Source: a virus. From it: DNA of 24,226 nt. Location: positions 1-24,226 of the IMG/VR virus record IMGVR_UViG_3300025508_000150; one strand, written 5' to 3'. Below, piece by piece: positions 571 through 24,226 of the stretch. The position numbers and the translations under genes were made by a program. Below the pieces are notes generated by a model. The model was given only the letters and a program-made list of their open reading frames with translations, ran no database searches and had not been told where the DNA came from. The first letter of the stretch is position 1; the number at the start of each line of letters is the position of its first letter.

Positions 571-602
571 CTAATGTACGACAATTATTTTGATTTACCA
601 AA
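571..602 (-). promoter_or_regulatory. Bacteroidota-like promoter, copy 1
   Basis: On the minus strand, TTTG (599-602) is followed by 20 bases and TACATTAG (571-578). This fits the TTTG / TANNTTTG layout described for Bacteroidota vegetative promoters. It lies upstream of the SD-less 90-residue gene. Copy 2 has the same 20-base spacing, which strengthens the call. Confidence 0.55.
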
Positions 603-627
603 CTTTCAATGTTAACAAATTGTTAAG
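595..627. repeat. 33-bp promoter-proximal repeat with palindrome, copy 1
   Basis: This 33-bp block matches 1044-1076 with two mismatches by eye. It includes the -33 TTTG and, directly upstream of it on the minus strand, the perfect odd palindrome TTAACAA-A-TTGTTAA (612-626). Position and symmetry suggest a dimeric regulator's binding site. Confidence 0.75.
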
Positions 628-628
628 T

Positions 629-967
629 TTAATATCCAATGAATTCCAACTTAACTTCAGGAACAATACCTTTACTTACTCCATATGGATATTCTTCATT
701 CAACCAAAAGTTCTGAACGTTTTCAAGCTCTCTAAGAGTTTCGTTATAGATATCTTCAAACTCATACCCAGTGCCATACCCAGTTGGACAAACAATAGAA
801 GAAACTTTTCGTAGAAGTTCTTCATCATCTGATTCTTTAGCGTTTTTTAGCTGAATTAATATTTCAATCTTCATCAAATCGGCCACCTTATCATTGTGGT
901 CATACATTTCGTTACTCCAAGGCTTTGTGATTTGGATTCCGTACTTAGTGTTTAGTGGCTTTTTCAT
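629..967 (-). CDS. Small acidic hypothetical protein
   Basis: One hundred and twelve residues, unrecognised. It starts MKKPLNTKYGIQITKPWSNE, has a likely amphipathic helix around 25-55 (DLMKIEILIQLKNAKES, then DDEELLRKV) and an aromatic acidic C-terminal half (GYEFEDIYNETLREL, then NFWLNEEYPYGV). There is no signal peptide or membrane segment. It is a single gene between two promoter cassettes: its own at about 1020-1076 and the next gene's at 571-627. The leader is A/T-rich without a Shine-Dalgarno sequence, unlike most of the structural genes. I infer an early or middle phage gene under the same control as the 90-residue gene. Confidence 0.75.
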   Translation of the reverse strand: MKKPLNTKYGIQITKPWSNEMYDHNDKVADLMKIEILIQLKNAKESDDEELLRKVSSIVCPTGYGTGYEFEDIYNETLRELENVQNFWLNEEYPYGVSKGIVPEVKLEFIGY

Positions 968-994
968 ATTTTTTAATTTTTACTTATTAAATGA

Positions 995-1008
995 GGTTAA
1001 CTCTAACC
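995..1008. promoter_or_regulatory. Leader inverted repeat, copy 2
   Basis: GGTTA-ACTC-TAACC is a shorter inverted repeat at the equivalent place between promoter copy 2 and the 112-residue gene. It keeps the GGTTA/TAACC arms of copy 1. Confidence 0.45.
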
Positions 1009-1019
1009 CTTTTACTATG

Positions 1020-1051
1020 TAAATATACGAAAAAAGCATGGTATTACCAAA
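1020..1051 (-). promoter_or_regulatory. Bacteroidota-like promoter, copy 2
   Basis: On the minus strand, TTTG (1048-1051) is followed by 20 bases and TATATTTA (1020-1027), again the TTTG / TANNTTTG layout. It drives the 112-residue gene. Spacing is identical to copy 1, while the spacer sequence differs, as expected if the two hexamer-like boxes are what is selected. Confidence 0.55.
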
Positions 1052-1076
1052 CTTCCAATGTTAAGAAATTGTTAAG
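1044..1076. repeat. 33-bp promoter-proximal repeat with palindrome, copy 2
   Basis: Second copy of the 33-bp block. Its palindrome (1061-1075, TTAAGAAATTGTTAA) has one broken pair compared with copy 1. It lies just after the stop of the last structural gene (1082). Confidence 0.75.
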
Positions 1077-1081
1077 TCTTT

Positions 1082-1714
1082 TTAAGGTTGGGCAAACTCT
1101 CTGTAATTTGTGATATAAGTTTTGAGAGATGGATATTTATCTGATGCTATTAGGGTGGTTCTTCTATTTGTGTTTTCTATACCTGCTTCTTTAATACTAC
1201 CATCGGGGTTCTTTATATCAACAGTAGGGCCGAAGATTTTCCATCTAATTTTAAACTTTTTCCATAATATAGAATCCAATCCCGTATCAGTACCTACTTT
1301 TCCAAAATCTTTTTTAGATAACTCTAAGAAAGAATCATCATTTATCTTTTGTGCAAAGTATCGTTCCATCCAACCTCGTTTAATATCAGAATTGGTTGGT
1401 GATATTATGGATGGGTTAGGTATAATTGATTTTTTTACATCCAATGTTTTTATATTATCGTACTCAAAGTTTTTTGCTAAATCAAATCCTACATCAGTTT
1501 GTTGATTTAATTTTTTGATATCTACATATGGAATTAATATTCTTGATTTACCATCTACAAATGATGCTTCTGAAAATACCTCACCTGTCGTATATGTATG
1601 ATATTGTCCAATGTATTCAACATTATCGGTAAACATCCATTCAGACCCATCGGTAATTAATCCAGGCGTTATCTGTGCTTTGGTGTAATATATACGGTTT
1701 CGTGTATCAGCCAT
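1082..1714 (-). CDS. Probable tail/baseplate structural protein of unknown role
   Basis: Two hundred and ten residues, soluble, no signal peptide. The N-terminal third is beta-like and aromatic (NRIYYTKAQITPGLIT, EWMFTDNVEYIGQYHTYTTG, then FSEASFVDGKSRILIPYVD). This style is familiar from uncharacterised structural proteins of environmental T4-type phages, but I cannot name a family. The middle has a basic stretch (KKFKIRWKIFGP), and the end is polar. It is the last gene of the structural run, starting 8 bases after the stop of the hub-like gene, which argues for a baseplate part or a protein linking baseplate and fibre. No lysozyme or spike signature is visible. It ends only 6 bases from the next promoter repeat and has no obvious terminator behind it. 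Confidence 0.65.
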   Translation of the reverse strand: MADTRNRIYYTKAQITPGLITDGSEWMFTDNVEYIGQYHTYTTGEVFSEASFVDGKSRILIPYVDIKKLNQQTDVGFDLAKNFEYDNIKTLDVKKSIIPNPSIISPTNSDIKRGWMERYFAQKINDDSFLELSKKDFGKVGTDTGLDSILWKKFKIRWKIFGPTVDIKNPDGSIKEAGIENTNRRTTLIASDKYPSLKTYITNYREFAQP

Positions 1715-3935: not shown

Positions 3936-6900
3936 CTAAAATGCTGTATCATAAACTTTTTTCATTGCAGATGATGGCTTTTCTCCTAGAATTTTTAATC
4001 CTATTGATACATCAACACCCATTGGTAATTCGCCTAATGGGTTCTCTTCAAAATCTAAATTTAAATCCCAAGGAGTTTCATCTGACATTGAATATGATAA
4101 TGATTCGATGAATGCTTGTCGTTCTCTAAACAAAGAACCCAAACGGAAATCAATTAGTTGTCCGGTATATCCAGTACTGCCACCATATACCGGCATAGTG
4201 AATTTTGCTAACTGAGATAGTTTTTTATATATAGGCTGCATTTCAATACGAGAGGTTGCATAAACTTTAAAGGTAAACGATAAACTTCGTTCGAATGTTT
4301 TGTATTGATATGCCTGGTCCGCTCTTCCGTTATATTTAACAGTATCCCAAGATGGTGAGAATGTATCGGTTATTCCTGCAACCGTTCCTCTGAATTGAAT
4401 TTTCTTATTATCAGATGTTTTGAACCACAGCTGGATTAAATCATATGTGCCTTCGGCTGGCTCTTCACCTATATCAAGTGCGTTTATTTTATCGTATCGG
4501 TCTCCAGTAAGGTCTGTATTCCCCCAGTCTACTCTATTTTCACCTAATTTACCAGGATTACCAAAATTCAGGAATTTGTTTATGTTGTTCTCTCCGTAGT
4601 TTTCTTTTTCTGCTCTTTTATATTCATTACTATCTTCTGATAATAAACTTCTGAAATCTATATCTGCACCGGCCCCACTCTTTCTTTTAGGAATGTTTAT
4701 ATATGAAATGGTTTCGTAATCGGTAATAATTTCACCAGCCGGCCGCGCGTAACTTAAATCTTCTCCTTTTGCATTTGTTCCAATATACCTTGCCCCATCG
4801 GTCTGATTAGATTTTGGAACACCACCACCACCGAATTTATAGATGTCTTTTTTGTAATCCTTATTGATGTACCTGTCATGTAGGAAGAAAAGGTGTTCGG
4901 TACGTTCCTGTTGAGTTCTTTCACTCGGACTAAGATTTTCATCCGTTGCTTCCGTATTAGTTGAATCTGGTGCTTTCATTACGATACCAGCTGCTGTATC
5001 CAACCCATTTGCCAGTGACTTTCGCCCGTATTGGCTAAAGATAGTATATGGTGCAAAGTATCGCTCAAAGTCATCTGGTAAATGTTTTGGGCCGCCTGGA
5101 GCCTCATCACCTAAATTCTTTTTTATTTGTATAGCTTCGTTCCGAGTATCAAATTCCCGCTTTGCGAACTTACCGTTAGGTATTAACCCATATACTGAAT
5201 TAGGTCCACCCAAACTGGCGTTATTAAATTTCCATCCCAAGTTTGCTGATAAGTCGCCTGTTTTACTGGAATTGTAACTGATAGTTTTTGACCCTTTGTT
5301 GATACCAAATGATTCACCATAATACGCCACTAATCTATTATCGGTTGGGTATGCCGGGCCCGGAAATAGACCTAAACCCATATCACCAAAAGCTCCTGCG
5401 TCCAATTTCAATTTTTGTACTGATTCGTACCCACCATCCCCTTTATCAAATGGGGTGAATCCGTGTCTATTTGGGTGTAACCCAAGTTGTATGCCAATTG
5501 AAGATGCTAATGTGTTTATAGGTGTCCATATTTTTGTACGCCGTTTTAAGTTTATCTTTTCTACATTTGGATTTGATTGTTGTAATCCAAATTGCTTTAC
5601 ACCCCATAATAACCCTTTGATGGATACCATCCACTTACCAAGTCTAATTGCATCTATAACTGCTCTTGTAGTAGATGTTATTACACCACCTCTGATAAGT
5701 CCATCATCTAAATCAATGTTAGTACCCGGTATACCAAAGTTTTGAGGTTCATTTCCCTTCTTACCCTTACGTTGTATACCTCTAAGAATTAATGGATGGT
5801 CAAATACTGTCAGTCCAGTATTATGTGCATCATCTCTTAGATTGAATTTAGAATACATCTCATCTAAGAAAGATGGTGAATTACGCATCTCTTGTAGTTT
5901 GGATATTTTACCTTTAGTCAAATCTAATGCAAAGTCACCTCTTTGGAATGAATCCATATAATAGGTACTGTCTTGGTTGTAACTTTGTTTTTGACCTGAT
6001 GCTTGTTTTTGTAATTTAAACTTACCATAACCAGGTGCTGATGATAAATCAGGATGTATATAACTACTATAGTTACTGTATTCAGATAAATTGGAAACCC
6101 ATTTACTTTCATCTGGTAACTTACCTTTAGTCAAATCTACTGCAAAATTACCTGTTTGGAATGGTTGCAAATAATATGTGTTGCTCCTGTTGTTTATTTG
6201 CTTTGTACCTGATGGGTCACCACCAAAAGATTTCACAGTTAATAAATTAACATGCGTATATTTAGAAAAACTACTGTATTCAGATGAGGTAGTACTCCAG
6301 TTAGTTTGGTCTTTTGAAATCCCAATAAATTGTGAAGGTGCTAACTGGAATTGATTTAGGGAAAACCCACGTGCTTTTGATGAATTAATTGGAAAGAAAT
6401 CAACCGCTTTAAGTTTACTATATAATGATGAGTTTTCATTAAATGCATCTTTATCATCGGCTGTTATTTCGTTTAATCCTCTTTTGATTCCTGTAAACTT
6501 TGTTTCATCTCGATGTACTTGGTTTAAAGAAAACCCACGTGCTTTTGATGTTTCAATTGGAAAGAAATTAACCGCTTTAAGTTCACCATGTATTGAGTTA
6601 TTATTCCATACTTCTTGGTTTTTTGCAACCCCAGTAAACTTTGAATCGGCTGGGAGAGTTGCTCCAAATTTAGAGTTAAACCCTTTAGCATGTATATCTG
6701 TAATATAATTTACGTCTTTTGGTGTAGTTTCACCCAAAAACTTAGATGTGTTGTTAGATGGGGTTTGTGTAGTTTCCCCTAAAAACTTAGATGTGTTATC
6801 TGCTGAATTAGGAGTTGTTTCACCTAAGAACTTAGATGTGTTATCTGCCGAATTAGGAGTTGTTTCACCCAAAAACTTAGATGTGTTATCTGCTGAATTA

Positions 6901-7445
6901 GGAGTTGTTTCACCTAAGAACTTAGATTCCCTATTAGATAGAGTTGGTGTTGTTAATCCTAAGAAGTTTTCGTTATTATCAAATTTAGTAGGTGTTGTTT
7001 CACCTAAGAAGTTTTCGTTATTATCAAATTTAGTAGGTGTTGTTTCACCTAAGAACTTAGATGTGTTATCTGCTGAATTGGGAGTTGTTTCACCTAAGTA
7101 ACGTTCTTCTAAACTTAATGGTTTAGTAGTTGTTTCACCTAAGAACTTTTCAGAGTTATTAGATGGCGTAGGTGTTGTTTCACCTAAAAACTTAGATGTA
7201 TTGTTAGATGGTGCAGGTGTGGTTTCACCTAAAAACTTAGATGTGTTATCCATATTTTTTGGATTAACACCCTCTTTATTAGTAGTTGTTTGAGAACGTG
7301 GAATCTTTGGCGCTGATTCTACCATAGAACTTAAAGGTGTTTTGTTTAAGTTTTTGTTAACACTTACTCTTTCTTTAGATTCCAACGGGTCTTTCTTTGG
7401 CATCCTAAACTTTGAAAGGTCTGATTTTAAATCTTTTAATGCCAT
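3936..7445 (-). CDS. Large repeat-bearing tail/baseplate protein
   Basis: A 1169-residue soluble protein with clear tiers. Residues 1-66 are basic and low in complexity. Residues 67-246 are twelve 15-residue tandem repeats built on NTSKFLGETTPNSAD. Residues about 280-376 hold two copies of a longer unit (KARGFSLNQ, then F.GI). Residues about 388-515 hold two copies of another (SEYS.., TYY..FQ.G.FA.DLTKGK). Residues 515-1000 are Gly/Asn-rich. Residues 1001-1169 look like a compact domain (FRGTVAGITDTFSPSWD, GRADQAYQYKTFERSLSFTF, PIYKKLSQLAKFTMPVY) that I have seen as a recurring theme in baseplate and tube-initiator proteins of T4-type phages. The gene lies right after the tape measure, 2 bases after its stop, with an AGGAAA ribosome site. 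It may help start or cap the tube at the baseplate; the N-terminal repeats are probably an extended binding or spacer region. Both functions are inferred. Confidence 0.7.
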   Translation of the reverse strand: MALKDLKSDLSKFRMPKKDPLESKERVSVNKNLNKTPLSSMVESAPKIPRSQTTTNKEGVNPKNMDNTSKFLGETTPAPSNNTSKFLGETTPTPSNNSEKFLGETTTKPLSLEERYLGETTPNSADNTSKFLGETTPTKFDNNENFLGETTPTKFDNNENFLGLTTPTLSNRESKFLGETTPNSADNTSKFLGETTPNSADNTSKFLGETTPNSADNTSKFLGETTQTPSNNTSKFLGETTPKDVNYITDIHAKGFNSKFGATLPADSKFTGVAKNQEVWNNNSIHGELKAVNFFPIETSKARGFSLNQVHRDETKFTGIKRGLNEITADDKDAFNENSSLYSKLKAVDFFPINSSKARGFSLNQFQLAPSQFIGISKDQTNWSTTSSEYSSFSKYTHVNLLTVKSFGGDPSGTKQINNRSNTYYLQPFQTGNFAVDLTKGKLPDESKWVSNLSEYSNYSSYIHPDLSSAPGYGKFKLQKQASGQKQSYNQDSTYYMDSFQRGDFALDLTKGKISKLQEMRNSPSFLDEMYSKFNLRDDAHNTGLTVFDHPLILRGIQRKGKKGNEPQNFGIPGTNIDLDDGLIRGGVITSTTRAVIDAIRLGKWMVSIKGLLWGVKQFGLQQSNPNVEKINLKRRTKIWTPINTLASSIGIQLGLHPNRHGFTPFDKGDGGYESVQKLKLDAGAFGDMGLGLFPGPAYPTDNRLVAYYGESFGINKGSKTISYNSSKTGDLSANLGWKFNNASLGGPNSVYGLIPNGKFAKREFDTRNEAIQIKKNLGDEAPGGPKHLPDDFERYFAPYTIFSQYGRKSLANGLDTAAGIVMKAPDSTNTEATDENLSPSERTQQERTEHLFFLHDRYINKDYKKDIYKFGGGGVPKSNQTDGARYIGTNAKGEDLSYARPAGEIITDYETISYINIPKRKSGAGADIDFRSLLSEDSNEYKRAEKENYGENNINKFLNFGNPGKLGENRVDWGNTDLTGDRYDKINALDIGEEPAEGTYDLIQLWFKTSDNKKIQFRGTVAGITDTFSPSWDTVKYNGRADQAYQYKTFERSLSFTFKVYATSRIEMQPIYKKLSQLAKFTMPVYGGSTGYTGQLIDFRLGSLFRERQAFIESLSYSMSDETPWDLNLDFEENPLGELPMGVDVSIGLKILGEKPSSAMKKVYDTAF
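3939..4445 (-). other. Conserved-looking C-terminal domain of the 1169-residue protein
   Basis: Residues 1001-1169. It is a dense alternation of strands with SPSWD, a G-A-Y-YKTFERSLSF strand pair and PIYKKLSQLAKFTMPVY, unlike the loose repeat region before it. This is likely the part built into the virion tail; its family assignment needs a profile search. Confidence 0.5.
6708..7247 (-). repeat. 45-bp coding minisatellite (12 units)
   Basis: Twelve head-to-tail 45-bp units encode 15-residue repeats with an almost fixed FLGETT core and variable flanks (NTSK/NNEN/LEER; PNSAD/PTKFD/PTPSN). All are in frame with no spacers. Several neighbouring units (the NTSKFLGETTPNSAD set) are close to identical in DNA, suggesting recent expansion. 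Confidence 0.9.
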
Positions 7446-7447
7446 AG

Positions 7448-9880
7448 TTATTTCCTATATACGTTTTTAGATACACCCTGTCTACTTTGAATTTTTGTTA
7501 TTTCAGAAACTACTTTACCATCTACACTTATTAGTATAGGTTGAGATTGAATATCACCACGTAATCCATTAATAGCATCTATTAACTTAGAATCTGAATT
7601 ATCTGAATTTGAATCAGTATCATCCGAACCACCCATCATATCACCGATACTATCAGCAATTCCCATTAAAGTAGGTGCAAGTAGAACGGTTACTGCTCCT
7701 AATCCTGTAAGAGCTAATAAACCAGGTACTCCCATCATACCGATTGCAGCTAATCCAAACGCAACTCCCATAAGAGCAGGTCCTAATAGTAACATAGCAC
7801 CTACATTTTCCATAGTTACTGCATTCATCATATTAACAAGTCCATCAGCTACTGCTGTAATGATTGGTGGTATTGCTGCGAATACACCTATAAATATATT
7901 TCCGAATGCTTCTACTAATGGTGATAATAATGATAATGAGTATGCAAATGGAATCATAGCTACACCTAATGCAGCAAGTAATCCAATTCCAATCAGTACA
8001 GCTATTGCTGTAGCTGGATTACCAAATGCGGTTAAACCCGCTGCGAGTCCTGCAAAGTTAGTAGTTAGAGCAGCCCCCAGTCCAGGAATCGACATAAACA
8101 ATAGAAATGGAATCGCTAACATACCCAGAGCTAGTGCTGGTATGGCTAGTAACAATACCAATGCCCCAACAGCAGCTTGTGTCATTTGAGATAAACCTCT
8201 ACCTAATCCTGTAAAGTTGTCTTTCAATGCTTTTAGTTTAACTTTACCCATAAATAATAAGAATGGGATTGCTGGTAATGATAACAGAAGTGCCGGTCCG
8301 GCTAATGCCATATTAAATATACCTGCTAATACTTTACCCGAACCCATTGCTTTTAATCCACCGGCAAGTGATTTTAATCCTTTACCTGAACCTTGTGATG
8401 CTTTGGTAGGTTTTGCTTCGGAATTACTTAAATCAGTTTGGCCTCCTCCACCTTTGCCACCCATACCAGGTATAAGATTTTTTAAACCAACACTTTTACC
8501 TTGCATCAGATTCATAATACCCATCTGAGCGATGTACCCAATTAGGGCAGTTGTTCCTTCTTTAATTGCATCAGGAGTTCTTTGATACAAATCTAAAGCA
8601 GTTGCTAAGCCTTTATCGAGGTCACTACTTTCTTCAATCTTTTTAGCTTGGTCTCGCTTCTGAATTTGCTCTGATAACATATCAGATGACATCCCTATTG
8701 CTGCAGCGTATTGCTCCATCCCTAATGGGCCTAGTTCTTTGAATTTTTCCGCTGACATATTGGTTTTGTCCAATGCGGCATTTAATGCATCAGTATTCCC
8801 TGTGTTCATGAACTCCATTGCAGCGGCGGTCATACCTTGCATACCTTCCATTTGAGTGGCGGTAAGCTTATCTCCCAACATAATTCGTGCTTTTGCCTGA
8901 GCTTTCATGCTAGATTCAATATCCAACATATTATCAGCTATACCCCTCATATCACTTAAAGAACGGCCTTGCTTATTCATTGCAATGGTTTTTTGAGCTA
9001 AAAGTTTAATCTCTTTCTCACTCATACCAACCATAAGCTTTTGTTGAGATGCCATATCCTTAAATGTAACTGATGCCAATACACCTGCATCTTGTGCCAT
9101 CTTTGATATCTCTTCGGTCATATCATTAGCACTACCACCGGCAGATTCCATCGATTGTGCCATCTTGGCTGCATCTTCACCACCTACACCCATTTTGGAC
9201 ATAGCTGCCATCGAGTTTCTAAGGTCGTTTGTTAACCCAGCAGTCGTACCCATTGTAGTTGCAAAATCTTTGGTAGCTTGGTTGAGTTCTGCTATACTAA
9301 ACTTAGAGAATACAGCGGCCGCCGAGAAGTTCATCATTCCAGCTTCCATTGCAGCGGCACCACTCATACCTAATTCTTGGTTCAAATCAGATGCTAATCC
9401 AACAGTAGTTTTAAATATATCACCAATCGCAGCAGTAGTTCCTTTAAGTGCTTCCATAGCAAACCCTAAAGTAGTACCTGCTTTTAACATTTGACCTAAC
9501 GTACCTAACGAACCAAATAATTCATCTTTATATCCTTCTGCTAGGTCTTTAATCTCTTCTTCTAAATCTTTTTGTTGAATTTTACTTTTAGTGATATCAA
9601 TTGCTAGGTCCATTTGAACTACCATACTATCATTGATAATCTTTCCTGATTTTATGTACTCTTGTAAGTATGTTTGTTTTTCCTGTTCTAATACATTTAA
9701 TTGGTCTGCAAGGTCTGCTTGTCCTTTTACAGATTTATTTATCCTATCTTGGATTTCTGCAGCTGCTTTAGTAGTTTTAGCGGTTGTTGCTAGAATAGCA
9801 GAAATTGACTGGAAGCTATCTTTCGCTTCTCTAGCGGCATTCTTTATTTTTATGGTTTCATCTGATGCAGAGTTAGCCAT
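7448..9880 (-). CDS. Tape measure protein
   Basis: An 810-residue protein. Residues 1-120 are predicted coiled coil and charged (KNAAREAKDSFQSI, then LNVLEQEKQTYLQEYIKSGK). The middle is Ala/Met-rich helix (MESAGGSANDMTEEISKMAQ). Residues about 500-760 contain several long hydrophobic stretches (ALLLSLPAIPFLLFMG, GALVLLLAIPALALGMLAIP, TAIAVLIGIGLLAALGVAM). This combination, the size and the place directly after the tail chaperone pair identify a tape measure, which sets tail length inside the tube and is thought to form or prime the DNA channel across the host inner membrane. At roughly 1.5 angstrom per residue it predicts a tail near 120 nm (inference). The start overlaps the previous stop as TAATG; only a weak AGGT precedes it. 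I see no peptidase motif. Confidence 0.85.
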   Translation of the reverse strand: MANSASDETIKIKNAAREAKDSFQSISAILATTAKTTKAAAEIQDRINKSVKGQADLADQLNVLEQEKQTYLQEYIKSGKIINDSMVVQMDLAIDITKSKIQQKDLEEEIKDLAEGYKDELFGSLGTLGQMLKAGTTLGFAMEALKGTTAAIGDIFKTTVGLASDLNQELGMSGAAAMEAGMMNFSAAAVFSKFSIAELNQATKDFATTMGTTAGLTNDLRNSMAAMSKMGVGGEDAAKMAQSMESAGGSANDMTEEISKMAQDAGVLASVTFKDMASQQKLMVGMSEKEIKLLAQKTIAMNKQGRSLSDMRGIADNMLDIESSMKAQAKARIMLGDKLTATQMEGMQGMTAAAMEFMNTGNTDALNAALDKTNMSAEKFKELGPLGMEQYAAAIGMSSDMLSEQIQKRDQAKKIEESSDLDKGLATALDLYQRTPDAIKEGTTALIGYIAQMGIMNLMQGKSVGLKNLIPGMGGKGGGGQTDLSNSEAKPTKASQGSGKGLKSLAGGLKAMGSGKVLAGIFNMALAGPALLLSLPAIPFLLFMGKVKLKALKDNFTGLGRGLSQMTQAAVGALVLLLAIPALALGMLAIPFLLFMSIPGLGAALTTNFAGLAAGLTAFGNPATAIAVLIGIGLLAALGVAMIPFAYSLSLLSPLVEAFGNIFIGVFAAIPPIITAVADGLVNMMNAVTMENVGAMLLLGPALMGVAFGLAAIGMMGVPGLLALTGLGAVTVLLAPTLMGIADSIGDMMGGSDDTDSNSDNSDSKLIDAINGLRGDIQSQPILISVDGKVVSEITKIQSRQGVSKNVYRK

Positions 9881-10139: not shown

Positions 10140-10158
10140 TTATATAAATATAAATATA
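10140..10158 (-). promoter_or_regulatory. ATATTTATA element before the tape-measure operon
   Basis: Two overlapping ATATTTATA runs on the minus strand, immediately after the terminator stem and before AGAGGAAA and the ATG at 10125. A candidate late promoter. Confidence 0.4.
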
Positions 10159-11295: not shown

Positions 11296-11307
11296 TATAT
11301 AAATATG
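11296..11307 (-). promoter_or_regulatory. ATATTTATA element before the gp26-like gene
   Basis: CATATTTATATA on the minus strand followed by CGA, matching the element at 14769-14780. It lies between the tube terminator and the gp26-like gene. Confidence 0.4.
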
Positions 11308-11904: not shown

Positions 11905-11916
11905 TATATAAATATA
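11905..11916 (-). promoter_or_regulatory. ATATTTATA element before the tube gene
   Basis: TATATTTATATA on the minus strand, just after the sheath terminator and about 30 bases before the tube start. A candidate late promoter for the monocistronic tube unit. Confidence 0.4.
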
Positions 11917-14768: not shown

Positions 14769-14780
14769 TATATAAATATG
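14769..14780 (-). promoter_or_regulatory. ATATTTATA element before the coiled-coil gene
   Basis: CATATTTATATA followed by CGA on the minus strand, upstream of the 99-residue gene. It occurs without a preceding terminator. Confidence 0.35.
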
Positions 14781-17295: not shown

Positions 17296-17308
17296 ATTAT
17301 AAATATGG
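17296..17308 (-). promoter_or_regulatory. ATATTTATA element before the gp13-like gene
   Basis: CCATATTTATAAT on the minus strand, about 20 bases before the AGGAGA-led gp13-like start. It is the entrance to the connector block. Confidence 0.35.
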
Positions 17309-19692: not shown

Positions 19693-20121
19693 TTAACAAT
19701 CAAATTGACCATCAACTTGACCACTTCCATCGATAGAAATTCCAGATTCCCCACTTCCATACATATAAAATCCAGCTTCAGCAGTTGGGCCTGTGTCATC
19801 ATCTTCTCTATAATAAGTTACACCATTAGCATATGGGCTTCCACCCCCATCGTGATAAAATGCGGTATCACCTGCGTTACCACAACCTTCTTCCGGGCCA
19901 CCCCATGGGCCGTTTAATGCTTCTTCAGTTAATCCTGCTGATGCTGAATGGTCGTATGAATAAAATTCTGATAGTTTATGTGGTGTACTTCCATCGGGTT
20001 TAGCCGAACTTGCATCATTTACCTCCGTTGTTGATAGTACCGTTAATGAACCATTGACGTTGCCCATTTCCACTCTGATTTGGCTAATACTTATTGGGTT
20101 TCCACTAGCTGGTAATGCCAT
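19693..20121 (-). CDS. Small phage tail-associated protein with Gly/Asp-rich C-terminus
   Basis: A 142-residue protein. It begins MALPASGNPISISQIRVEMG, a start often found in short phage structural proteins and fibre adaptors (LPASG.IS..Q...E.G). Residues 60-142 form a Gly/Asp/Tyr-rich domain (GPWGGPEEGCGNAGDTAFYH, GGGSPYANGVTYYREDDDTG, GFYMYGSGESGISIDGSG) that ends in a terminal Cys; this looks like a small repeated beta-sandwich seen in environmental phage proteins. The ATG overlaps the fibre stop (TAATG), so it is coupled to the fibre. A fibre tip or linker is plausible. Confidence 0.65.
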   Translation of the reverse strand: MALPASGNPISISQIRVEMGNVNGSLTVLSTTEVNDASSAKPDGSTPHKLSEFYSYDHSASAGLTEEALNGPWGGPEEGCGNAGDTAFYHDGGGSPYANGVTYYREDDDTGPTAEAGFYMYGSGESGISIDGSGQVDGQFDC

Positions 20122-23100
20122 TATTTAATCCTATTTTTAAGTTCATCAATTTGTTTTTGTTGTTCTTTAATAGTTTCTATCAATAATGGTATTATTTTTT
20201 CATACCGAACTGCTTTCATACCACTATTTCGGGTTTGTACTGCTTCAGGTAGAACTGCTTCTACTTCTTGTGCAATAACACCAACATCATGTCCTTTATT
20301 ACCATGTACTACTGAATCTTCTCTCCAATCAAATTCATACCCACCTAATTCAAGTAATTTTTGTAATGGGGATTCAATTGGTGTGATATTATCTTTCCAT
20401 CTTCTATCTGATGTTGAGAATGCTACAACATCATTTGATGCATCAATTCTACCTGCAGTTACACTTCCCGTAAGAGCACCAACTGCCAATGAACCTGTTA
20501 TTACTACATTTTTACCATTTACTACAATACCTTCTTGATTATGAGTTCCTATTTTAACTGTATCATCAGAGAATACTTCAAAAATTGGTATACCTGATAT
20601 ATCGTTTACTGAGAAAAGAGAACCTGATAGTTCATCTGTTACTGAGAATAAAGTACCGAACCCACCTTCAATAGTAAATACATCCGTATCCCCAACAGAA
20701 CCCGAGCGATATATCTTTGTTGAGCCGTATACATCCAATGCAAGGCCACCTGAACCCGATACTACTATTGAGCCTGTAATTTGTGCATCACCTGTAAATG
20801 GGAATGTTGATGATGATACAATACCAGCTGGTAATTGTGCAGAACCACTTATAAGACCTGATGGTAATTGTGCAGAACCACTTATAATACCAGCAGGTAA
20901 ATTTGCCAATACATTCGCCGCATCGGTTACATCAGCACCAGCTTCAACATTCAAGTCACTTAGTACTTCAGCTACAGTTCTACCTTCAACCGATGTTCCA
21001 TCAATTTTTAAGAAATCATTATCTGCTACTGCAGCGTTAGCAACTAAAACATTTCCATTTGAAATACCACTTGCTAATCCTTTTACTAATGAAAGATTTG
21101 TAACTTCCGAATCCATTAATGCGCCAGCAGCAGTTACGTTAGTAGCATCTGTTACGTCTGCACTGCTTTCAACTGAATCTAATTTAGTTTCTTGTGCATC
21201 AGTCATTAACCTTTTATTAGTTGCATCTGTAAAGTTAGTAGTTGTAAATGTTGGAGTTGCCCCACTAACTACTGATTGGTCTAATGCTTTTACATTAGCA
21301 ATAGATGTTAATTCTGAATCCATTAATGCGCCAGCTGAAGTTACATTTGCTGTATCTGTTACGTCTGCGGATGCTTCAATTGCATCTAATTTATTTTTTA
21401 GAGTTGTTGTAAAATCATTAGCAGTTTGTGTAGGTAATGAAGTTAATCCACTACCATCACCAGCAAAAGAACCTGTAAACGAACCTGTAAATGGGGTTGT
21501 TAATGTATTAAATTGAGTTGAACCACTTATAAGGCCTGATGGTAATTGTGCTGAACCACTTATTACACCCAATGTATCAAGTGCGGCAACAACGTTAGTA
21601 GTATCGGTTACGTCTGCTGATGCCTCAATTGCATCTAATTTATCAAACATTGCTTTTGTCATTACACCTGCAACAGATGTTGATGCTGCTCCTATCGCAA
21701 CATTATCACCATCAGATGAATTAATTGTAACATTTGTTTCTGATGCTGTTTTTGTTAGGTTTGTAGAAACGTTTGTTACTTTTGCTGTATTGGTTGCAAC
21801 ATCAGATGCAATTGATGAACTTACAGAAGTAAAAGAGCCGGAAATTGATGCTGCCGTTAATACTTTAATTAATGCTAATGCAGAAACTTCCGAATCCATC
21901 AATGCCCCAGCTGATGTTACATTGGCTGTATCAGTAACATCTGCACTGCTTTCAACTGAATCTAATTTAGTTTCTTGTGCATCAGTCATTAACCTTTTAT
22001 TAGTTGCATCTGTAAAGTTAGCCGTTCCAAATGTTGGAGATGCTCCACTAACTACTGATTGGTCTAATGCTTTTACATTAGCAATAGATGTTAATTCCGA
22101 ATCCATTAATGCTCCAGCTGATGTTACATTAGTGGTATCTGTTACGTCTGCTGATGCTTCGATTGCATCTAATTTATTTTTTAGAGTTGTTGTGAAGTCA
22201 TTTGCTGTCTGAGCTGGAAGGGAGGTTAACCCACTACCATCACCAGCAAACGAACCTGTAAACGAACCTGTGAATGGGGTTGTTAATGTATCGAATTGTG
22301 TTGAACCACTTATAAGGCCTGATGGTAATTGTGCTGAACCACTTATTATTCCACTTGGTAAATTTGCCAATACATTTGCTGTATCTGTTACATCAGCACT
22401 TGCTTCGATTCCATCAAGTTTATCAAACATTTCGTCTGACATTAATCCCCAATTGTCCGTATCCGCAAGAGATAATGCTACATTATCACCATCCGATGAA
22501 TTAATTGCGAATCCAGTTCCACTTACTGTTTTAGTTAAGTTAGTAGAAACATTTGTTGCTTTTGCTGTATTGGTTGCAACATCGGATGCTATTGAAGAAC
22601 TTACTGCAGTAAACGAACCAGAAATTGATGCTGCGGTTAATACTTTAATTAATGCTAATGCAGAAACTTCAGAATCCATTAATGCTCCAGCAGATGTTAC
22701 ATTTGCTGTATCTGTTACATCAGCACTTGCTTCAATTGCATCTAATTTTGTTTTTAATGTATTTGTAAAATCATTAGCAGTTTGGGCTGGAAGGGAGGTT
22801 AATCCACTACCATCTCCAGCAAACGAACCTGTAAATGAACCTGTAAATGGAAGAGTTAATGTATCGAATTGAGTTGAGCCACTTATTATTCCAGCAGGTA
22901 ACTGTGCTGAACCACTTATTATTCCAGCAGGTAATTGAGCTGAACTACTAATTGTTCCAGCTGCTCCACCAACGCCTGTTAAATTTGAACCATCACCATA
23001 TAGTGAACCACTTACATATAGTGAACCTGTAAATTGATGTGTATCTAATATATCATCACCGAAAATGGTAGAGCCGCTACTGAATGAGGTAGTCATATGA

Positions 23101-24226
23101 GTTACTGATGAACTTACTACATATTCTTCTGCTGTTATTGTTTTAACTACCAACTCAGCGCCAACTAAAGAAGATAATACATTAGTGGTATCGGTTACAT
23201 CCGCACTTGCCTCTATCCCATCTAATTTATCAAATAGTGTAGTGTTCATTAGACCTGAAACAGATGTTGTTGCTACGGGTATTGTTGCGTTATCACCATC
23301 TGAAGAAGCGATTACTCTAGCTTCAGTAGTTCCAGTTATAGATAAATTTGTAGAAACGTTTGTTGCTTTTGCTGTATTGGTTGCAACATCGGATGCTATT
23401 GAAGAACTTACTGCAGTAAACGAGCCAGAAATGGATGCAGCCGTTAATACTTTGATTAATGCTAATGCAGAAACTTCAGAATCCATTAATGCCCCTGCGG
23501 CAGTTACATTTGTTGCATCTGTTACATCAGCTGATGCTTCGATTGCATCTAATTTATTTTTTAGAGTTGTTGTGAAGTCATTTGCAGTTTGGGCTGGAAG
23601 GGAGGTTAATGCTGACCCATCACCAACAAAAGAACCTGTAAATGACCCAGTAAATGGAGTTGTTAATGTATCGAATTGTGTTGAACCACTTATGATACCC
23701 GAAGGTAATTGAGCTGAACCACTTATGATACCCGAAGGTAAATTTGCTAATACGTTTGCTGTATCTGTTACATCTGCAGATGCTTCGATTCCATCTAATT
23801 TATCAAACATTGCTTTTGTCATTACACCTGCAACAGATGTTGATGCCGCTCCTATTGCAACGTTATCACCATCAGATGAGTTTATTGTAACATTTGTTTC
23901 TGATGCTGTTTTTGTTAAGTTTGTAGAAACATTTGTTGCTTTTGCTGTATTGGTTGCAACATCGGATGCTATTGAAGAACTTACAGAAGTAAACGAACCA
24001 GAAATGGATGCAGCCGTTAATACTTTGATTAATGCTAATGCAGAAACTTCCGAATCCATTAATGCTCCAGCGGCAGTTACATTGGTTGTATCTGTTACAT
24101 CTGCTGATGCCTCAATTGCATCTAATTTGTTTTTTAATGTTGTTGTAAAGTTTTCATCAGATGCTCCACTAATTCCTGTGATTCCACTACCATCTCCAGC
24201 AAATGAGCCTGTAAACGAACCTGTAA
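20121..24226 (-). CDS. Repetitive tail fibre with S74 auto-processing chaperone domain (5' end beyond window)
   Basis: The frame is open from the right edge to the TAA at 20121-20123, at least 1368 codons. A Met at 24059 is internal, since the reading frame continues upstream with the same repeats. Most of the protein is built from alternating units: PFTGSFTGSFAGDGSGLTSL, KLDAIEASADVTD, GALMDSEVSALALIKVLTAA and SGIISGSAQLPSGIISGS. These are typical of trimeric triple-helix fibre shafts. A distinct C-terminal stretch (TGSIVVSGSGGLALDVYGST, FSVNDISGIPIFEV) precedes the S74 domain. The final 96 residues begin SDRRWKDNITPIESPLQKLL and end with EQQKQIDELKN. In this family the chaperone cleaves itself at the Ser of SD.R.K. 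It is probably the receptor-binding fibre. Confidence 0.85.
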   Translation of the reverse strand, partial: TGSFTGSFAGDGSGITGISGASDENFTTTLKNKLDAIEASADVTDTTNVTAAGALMDSEVSALALIKVLTAASISGSFTSVSSSIASDVATNTAKATNVSTNLTKTASETNVTINSSDGDNVAIGAASTSVAGVMTKAMFDKLDGIEASADVTDTANVLANLPSGIISGSAQLPSGIISGSTQFDTLTTPFTGSFTGSFVGDGSALTSLPAQTANDFTTTLKNKLDAIEASADVTDATNVTAAGALMDSEVSALALIKVLTAASISGSFTAVSSSIASDVATNTAKATNVSTNLSITGTTEARVIASSDGDNATIPVATTSVSGLMNTTLFDKLDGIEASADVTDTTNVLSSLVGAELVVKTITAEEYVVSSSVTHMTTSFSSGSTIFGDDILDTHQFTGSLYVSGSLYGDGSNLTGVGGAAGTISSSAQLPAGIISGSAQLPAGIISGSTQFDTLTLPFTGSFTGSFAGDGSGLTSLPAQTANDFTNTLKTKLDAIEASADVTDTANVTSAGALMDSEVSALALIKVLTAASISGSFTAVSSSIASDVATNTAKATNVSTNLTKTVSGTGFAINSSDGDNVALSLADTDNWGLMSDEMFDKLDGIEASADVTDTANVLANLPSGIISGSAQLPSGLISGSTQFDTLTTPFTGSFTGSFAGDGSGLTSLPAQTANDFTTTLKNKLDAIEASADVTDTTNVTSAGALMDSELTSIANVKALDQSVVSGASPTFGTANFTDATNKRLMTDAQETKLDSVESSADVTDTANVTSAGALMDSEVSALALIKVLTAASISGSFTSVSSSIASDVATNTAKVTNVSTNLTKTASETNVTINSSDGDNVAIGAASTSVAGVMTKAMFDKLDAIEASADVTDTTNVVAALDTLGVISGSAQLPSGLISGSTQFNTLTTPFTGSFTGSFAGDGSGLTSLPTQTANDFTTTLKNKLDAIEASADVTDTANVTSAGALMDSELTSIANVKALDQSVVSGATPTFTTTNFTDATNKRLMTDAQETKLDSVESSADVTDATNVTAAGALMDSEVTNLSLVKGLASGISNGNVLVANAAVADNDFLKIDGTSVEGRTVAEVLSDLNVEAGADVTDAANVLANLPAGIISGSAQLPSGLISGSAQLPAGIVSSSTFPFTGDAQITGSIVVSGSGGLALDVYGSTKIYRSGSVGDTDVFTIEGGFGTLFSVTDELSGSLFSVNDISGIPIFEVFSDDTVKIGTHNQEGIVVNGKNVVITGSLAVGALTGSVTAGRIDASNDVVAFSTSDRRWKDNITPIESPLQKLLELGGYEFDWREDSVVHGNKGHDVGVIAQEVEAVLPEAVQTRNSGMKAVRYEKIIPLLIETIKEQQKQIDELKNRIK
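20124..20411 (-). other. Peptidase S74 intramolecular chaperone domain
   Basis: The last 96 residues of the fibre. The motif SDRRWKDNI carries the Ser (20409-20411) and the Lys of the family's Ser-Lys dyad; GVIAQEVEAVLPEAV is the second hallmark, and a coiled C-terminal helix follows. It folds the trimer and is then released. Confidence 0.88.
20870..24226 (-). repeat. Fibre shaft repeat array
   Basis: The shaft contains about eleven KLD(A/G/S)(I/V)E(A/S)SADVTD units, one of them in the edge segment, plus one degenerate unit (VEAGADVTD). The longer PFTGSF/KLD/GALMDSE modules recur at least five times. The repeats are near-identical as protein but carry many silent differences, so they are not recent DNA copies. 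Confidence 0.85.

Follow-up and report, generated by a model that had tools for sequence, protein, structure and literature searches.

The window analysed here, by which we mean the whole stretch of 24,226 bases, comes from an IMG/VR virus record, and all of its predicted genes lie on the minus strand. These genes include a tail sheath, a tail tube and a baseplate-wedge-like protein. Judging from its neighbours, a 210-aa gene at 1082-1714 (minus strand), without a family match of its own, appears to close the tail block. It is followed on the same strand by a 112-aa gene (629-967) and a 90-aa gene (245-517). The predicted model of the 112-aa product is alpha-helical (pLDDT 90), and a fold search with it returned nothing below E 0.001, the best hit being an uncharacterised phage protein at E 2.4e-3. 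The 90-aa product is modelled as a long helix with a small beta barrel (pLDDT 82, pTM 0.53); read by eye, the barrel may be SH3/KOW-like, and the fold search gave no match at E < 0.001. Elsewhere in the window, 45-bp tandem repeats occupy 6673-7302 within a 1169-aa gene, and 20121-24059 encodes a tail-fibre-like protein with a match to the S74 chaperone and an odd FTR_C match that is probably spurious.

Upstream of each of the two small genes, in intergenic DNA and on the strand of the genes, lies one copy of a 33-bp block. An earlier note on this DNA had described this repeat (595-627 and 1044-1076, two mismatches) together with a TTTG-N20-TANNTT core in both copies, and both descriptions are exact: the blocks are identical at 31 of 33 positions, and the cores are found on the minus strand. 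Copy 1, ahead of the 112-aa gene, begins directly past the stop of the 210-aa gene and carries TTTG at 1051-1048, followed after 20 bases by TATATTTA at 1027-1020. Copy 2, ahead of the 90-aa gene, carries TTTG at 602-599 and, after the same spacing, TACATTAG at 578-571. Scanning the window with up to three mismatches returned these two blocks and no third, and none was found in 100 shuffles. The core pattern by itself has two matches on the minus strand, which are the two copies, and also two on the plus strand; chance could therefore account for the core alone. It does not account for the 33-bp block and the recurrence of this block elsewhere. Upstream of the block the identity between the copies falls to 10/40, which argues against a recent duplication.

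The 33-bp block covers positions -61 to -29 of a composite promoter that extends beyond it. Along the minus strand, copy 1 has the layout TTAACA-N5-TTAACA-N8-TTGG-N19-TATATTTA-N4-GTAA, in which TTTG is the -33 element; copy 2 shares this layout, with TACATTAG in place of TATATTTA. In copy 1 the distal TTAACA box lies at 1070-1075, the proximal box 11 bp from it at 1059-1064, the -33 element at 1048-1051 and the -7 element at 1020-1027, with a predicted transcription start at 1015, the G of GTAAAA. The corresponding positions in copy 2 are 621-626, 610-615, 599-602 and 571-578, with a predicted start at 566, the G of GTAATA. The numbering follows F. psychrophilum, for which the available part of the source places the -7 box at -12 to -5 (PMC9723704); on that basis +1 would be the G of GTAA, and the two boxes would lie at -60 to -55 and -49 to -44.

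The earlier note had expected more copies elsewhere, which proved right for relatives of this virus and wrong for the remainder of the 24-kb window. An exact scan of IMG/VR returned 8 stretches in 7 contigs, and these 7 records hold 24 copies at up to three mismatches, all on one strand within each record, and no match to the reversed pattern. Of the seven, G004 is a near-copy of the window, as G006 is of G005. G005 (100,504 bases, of which 100,000 were fetched) is about 82-95% identical to the window across much of its length; copy 1 shows no change in it from the distal box to within the leader, whereas copy 2 has diverged and there is no 90-aa gene. Among 15 large records, 96 copies occur in 11 (3-29 each), again on one strand per record with none reversed, the 11 having been chosen for bearing the motif. 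Because such further copies exist in relatives, the co-regulated set that the note had proposed is likely. When the architecture was searched in IMG/VR without constraints on the flanks, at least 120 stretches were obtained, compared with 1 for one scrambled version. Among the matches listed, 73 of 119 loci share at least two gene families with the relatives of the window and 46 do not.

The class has the form TTAACA-N4/5-TTAACA-N8-TTTGG-N19-TAnnTT(T/A)(A/G), and in relatives of the window GTAA occupies the predicted start. Records G001-G007 and loci L064-L182 were fetched by the motif, and counts within them depend on that choice. Using the core with exact spacing as the sole criterion, nine records gave 58 matches, corresponding to 51 distinct promoters, of which 39 carry an exact tandem TTAACA pair and 46 at least one TTAACA. 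A core-only search for T(T/A)GG-N17-21-TAnnTTWR-N2-6-GTAA returned 51 matches in 8 records (mean of 1.85 and maximum of 4 in shuffles), a few of which fall within ORFs.

The TTAACA boxes are direct repeats 10-11 bp apart, in helical phase with the -33 box. Among 50 same-strand pairs within 40 bp of each other in six records, 24 are spaced at 11 bp, 9 at 10 bp, 5 at 12 bp and 12 otherwise; by eye, no promoter core was found after the 12-bp pairs. The gap between the boxes is 5 bases in 179 and 4 bases in 14 of the 193 phage promoters among the matches listed, a set that omits five promoters from the bacterial loci L056-L063. In the same listed set, the spacer after TNGG, allowed to range from 18 to 20, is 19 in 178/193. 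In 80 of the listed IMG/VR loci, 101 of 113 promoters have the 19-base spacer, and GTAA is conserved there though absent from the query. The start sequence and the end of the -7 box show opposite trends among the matches listed: GTAA is found in 27/28 promoters of the G records, 74/98 of other loci that share genes with these records and 15/67 of the remaining loci, whereas the full TAnnTTTG is found in 0/28, 7/98 and 36/67, respectively. In the core-selected promoters, each box has a preferred C (0.82 at -45, 0.65 at -56); positions -54 to -51 have no G and at most 0.08 C, while G reaches 0.33, 0.39, 0.08, 0.18 and 0.43 at -41 to -37.

These sequence comparisons place the two window copies in a class of phage promoters; they are not a local duplication. 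The proposal of a duplicated promoter/operator cassette with a Bacteroidota-type core is thus borne out in its promoter part, with TTTG, the spacing and the TAnnTT box all present, and needs revision in two others: the copies are family members, and the upstream part is a tandem direct repeat. A palindromic operator was considered and rejected, since the palindrome is lost in variant copies while the direct repeat is kept.

Because most loci had come by the motif, orthologues of the two small genes were fetched by protein. For the 90-aa protein, 16 loci were obtained, and the element is found in all 9 at 67% identity or more and in none of the 7 at 43% or less. The strict core picked out eight of the nine, and inspection by eye added L195 as a variant; seven of the nine have two exact boxes, and one letter is changed in L194 and L195. 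Several of these nine contigs are near-copies, and L187 is near-identical to the window. For the 112-aa protein the element is present in 3 of 4 loci, namely the contig near-identical to the window, G005 and the near-copy of G005; in the fourth (39%), a core-like sequence can be seen by eye, and boxes are absent. Among the motif-fetched loci, a core lies directly upstream of 6/16 homologues of the 112-aa gene and of 9/9 members of the 90-aa family. These counts make the link of copy 2 to its gene firm and that of copy 1 looser.

In five large records, an ORF start is found no more than 120 nt away from 61 of 68 promoters (25/29, 7/7, 13/13, 10/13 and 6/6 per record), compared with 10-18% of random places. 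In four records, none of 61 copies falls in the leading tail-gene block, taken from the start of the record to the last tail gene, a structural role being established for part of its genes; under uniform placement, the chance of such absence is 0.036, 0.037, 0.082 and 0.044 per record. G331 was left out of these 61 copies; its 7 copies lie at 143-160 kb and its tail homologues at 13-23 kb. The 210-aa gene or its homologue precedes the first copy in the window, G005 and G312, and in G333 it precedes cores at 38,322 (with one box letter changed) and 38,720. As an exception, the tail block of G313 ends without a copy. Behind core promoters in relatives are genes for a UvdE-type endonuclease, an AAA ATPase, a 5'-nucleotidase, a protein matching a cobalamin-biosynthesis PHROG and many small ORFs; a gp32-like gene starts 245 nt past a core without TTAACA boxes. 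Collectively, the promoters probably serve genes outside the tail block, and the position of these genes suggests that they are early or middle genes.

Other signals were seen in the tail region. A late-type box, YATATTTATA, has seven matches on the coding strand and none on the opposite strand of the window, against 0.88 expected, at 7889-7898, 10143-10158, 11298-11307, 11907-11916, 14771-14780 and 17298-17307 (minus strand); six of the seven are ahead of tail-region genes and one is intragenic. Shine-Dalgarno-like sites precede 21 of 27 structural-block genes of G005 versus 17 of 95 genes elsewhere (17/27 versus 15/95 with a stricter motif). In the window they precede 15 of 17 genes above 3600 (3630-24059) and none of the four below, two of those four being tail-region genes.

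Four of the 15 large records have no copy, namely a 310-kb phage, Mel-JY01, LR756508 and Flavobacterium phage immuto, and none of four phages with a matching sheath carries the element. On the sheath tree, the motif label requires three changes, with weak support. BLAST of the promoter against named phages gave weak matches only. Scanning bacterial genomes with the pattern including GTAA, which is present in 35 of the 120 viral loci listed, returned three stretches: one in a MAG labelled Mycoplasmatota, ahead of a tRNA-like sequence (by eye), one in a Prevotellaceae MAG, ahead of an ORF (by eye), and one in a Flavipsychrobacter MAG, with no ORF of at least 80 aa close downstream. The full host version was found in 0 of 296 genomes of the phylum of the Flavipsychrobacter MAG; since a control with scrambled boxes also gave 0, this search indicates only that the full element is rare there. 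We found no description of the element in the literature searched by title and start of abstract, nor any match to the box strings themselves. The class recurs in many large phages whose hosts are probably Bacteroidota.

The core shares with the Bacteroidota sigma-A promoter (-33 TTG/TTTG, -7 TAnnTTTG) the TTTG element and the N20 spacing, present in both window copies, the TAnnTT box and an expected start 5 nt past the box. It differs in the -7 box, which usually ends in TTTA or TTAG in the kin of the window (each window copy has 5 of the 6 specified letters of TAnnTTTG, and neither has all), in the GTAA start, and in the two extra upstream TTAACA boxes, which together with the full host core occur in none of the 296 genomes. 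It is likely that the host sigma-A polymerase reads the core. The leaders of the 90-aa and 112-aa genes are A-rich and have no Shine-Dalgarno sequence. A Bacteroidota host fits the core promoter, these leaders, the bS21 gene of G005 and, as far as the available part of that paper goes, the published bS21 phages of freshwater Bacteroidetes (PMC9723584). bS21 was found in three of eight records (G005, Mel-JY01 and LR756508); as a further point of comparison with that paper, whose main text is without the word "promoter", the structural block of G005 carries Shine-Dalgarno-like sites. Neither a spacer match nor a cultured host was found. A separate observation concerns the Microcystis phage Mel-JY01 (L207-L216, near 53694), which encodes bS21 and a sheath with 59% identity to that of the window, and which carries 12 Bacteroidota-like promoters versus 8.9 in shuffles; its Microcystis host label may deserve a check.

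Taken together, we consider it probable that both copies are promoters of a class with which this group of large phages expresses genes other than those of the tail block, probably in the early or middle phase, and that the host housekeeping (sigma-A type) RNA polymerase would start at the G of GTAA, at 1015 and 566. For the tandem TTAACA element, the reading that we place first, at somewhat less than even confidence, is that it strengthens the promoter by contacting the polymerase itself: two alpha C-terminal domains could bind one helical turn apart, near -53 and -42, which can be set beside the alpha-CTD site positions of UP elements. Such a contact would let phage promoters out-compete host promoters. 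The element shares with an UP element the A/T tract at -54 to -51 and an A-rich stretch one turn downstream. It differs in the conserved C of each box, in allowing G at -41 to -37 and in its strict 10-11-bp direct repeat; as neither the C nor the G is needed by a plain UP element, the latter fits less well, and because the second tract is not A/T-only we lowered our confidence in the contact slightly.

A possible but more doubtful reading is that the boxes form a tandem operator for a winged-helix activator of the OmpR/PhoB type, which would touch RNA polymerase just upstream of -33 and be encoded by the host in the lineage of the window and by the phage in one or more further lineages. The Bacillus PhoP box, TT(A/T/C)ACA, and the geometry suit this reading, 33 of 50 pairs being direct repeats with a period of 10-11 bp. 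The PHO box likewise consists of two 11-nt direct repeat units, according to the available part of PMC4415409, and such OmpR-family operators share with the phage element two repeats of 11-bp period beside a core promoter; the phage promoters differ in keeping the -33 element and in that no cognate regulator was found in the lineage of the window. One lineage does encode a stand-alone Trans_reg_C domain (L179, 2745-3128, minus strand, E 4.7e-19), and its gene is flanked by the same promoter before and after (L258, 7167-7626); the 15-kb contig concerned has 14 copies of the element. However, the search for PF00486 in 33 motif-bearing records gave only 3 with a match, of which two hold the same sequence, and it is absent from the other 30, six of which are contigs of 167-187 kb; the window, G001, G002, G003, G005 and G007, possibly fragments, are without it. 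Moreover, the promoter of the Trans_reg_C gene has both boxes in L179, but in the sequence shared by G319 and G331 one box is exact and the second degenerate, and the 310-kb phage, which encodes a 43% homologue of the OmpR-type protein, has no copy of the element. A phage OmpR-type regulator was thus rejected as the general reader, being too rare and having one homologue without the motif. The host Pho regulon was set aside as well: the pstS loci, from genomes that are not known hosts, gave no clear TTAACA tandem, with 12 of 38 ORFs in 30 loci (not all pstS) at a score of at least 9 against 19% expected.

It is improbable, in our view, that the boxes are a repressor operator that shuts the genes off, for example at the change to late transcription. 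The repeats do adjoin the -33 box, and a 67-73-aa helix-turn-helix-like protein (by eye) is present in 4 of 5 motif genomes and 0 of 2 controls; this protein is a lead, gene content having otherwise revealed no clear regulator in the five motif genomes compared with the two controls. Nevertheless, the boxes lie upstream of the -33 element and not across the start, and the copies do not conserve a palindrome of the sort expected for a dimeric repressor. That the element is a mobile or recombination sequence without a role in transcription, as the sharing of promoter and leader by different genes might suggest, is very improbable given the fixed spacing to the core, the strand bias, the siting before ORFs and the absence from the tail block.

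Some members of the class also carry a terminator within the promoter. We defined a strict terminator as a stem of at least 5 pairs with at least 3 G-C, followed by at least 5 T in the next 7 bases. Such a structure encloses the -33 box in 23 of the 193 unique phage promoters, in 9 of 140 clusters, among the matches listed, with a mean of 0.18 clusters and a maximum of 2 in 500 sets of shuffled spacers, and none on the other strand. The -33 box is usually in the 5' arm, and 15 arm pairs occur. For the looser terminator, hairpin-energy and covariation analyses, the five L056-L063 promoters were included, giving 198. Under the looser criterion, terminators were found in 13 of 143 clusters versus 1.73 expected (maximum 6), and in 4 on the other strand; we therefore kept to the strict criterion.

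Neither window copy has a strict terminator, and two copies elsewhere in the record of G005 do. Copy 1 has a weak terminator-like hairpin with one mismatch (1032-1056, minus strand), which covers the -33 element and spacer and runs into T6; the region 1020-1062 folds at -8.0 kcal/mol, and 8 of 200 shuffles are as stable. For copy 2 the fold is at -1.2 kcal/mol, with 176 of 200 shuffles as stable. A general RNA hairpin over the -33 box was rejected: the mean energy is -3.68 versus -1.99 for shuffled spacers, but covariation is absent, the dyad as a whole giving 35/130 versus 33 expected, and most promoters have only a fixed dyad. Leader hairpins, at 542-558 and 994-1009 in the window, were likewise rejected, being overall not above shuffles (mean z -0.16 across 130 leaders).

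In the subset with a terminator, read-through from upstream would fold the promoter sequence into an intrinsic terminator, so that the promoter would insulate its gene from the preceding one. Copy 1 of the window, which stands at the end of the tail genes, carries this hairpin in a weak form only. We tentatively propose, with doubt outweighing confidence, that across several lineages of large phages (about 100-290 kb) the class unites three parts within about 70 bp, namely a dedicated tandem operator of TTAACA boxes, a core of the Bacteroidota type and, for a subset of copies, an intrinsic terminator with the -33 box as its 5' arm, forming a self-insulated gene unit, and that the operator of one lineage is read by a phage-encoded, autoregulated protein of the OmpR type.

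The literature searched yielded no account of how transcription is programmed in large Bacteroidota phages. The class described here provides a searchable signature, with predicted starts, for promoters of large-phage genes outside the tail block, and a candidate strong promoter for Bacteroidota genetics. It also makes it possible to test whether densely packed phage genes are insulated by the fusion of a promoter with a terminator. Together with the late-type box and the Shine-Dalgarno-like sites of the structural block, it gives the outline of a testable two-step programme.
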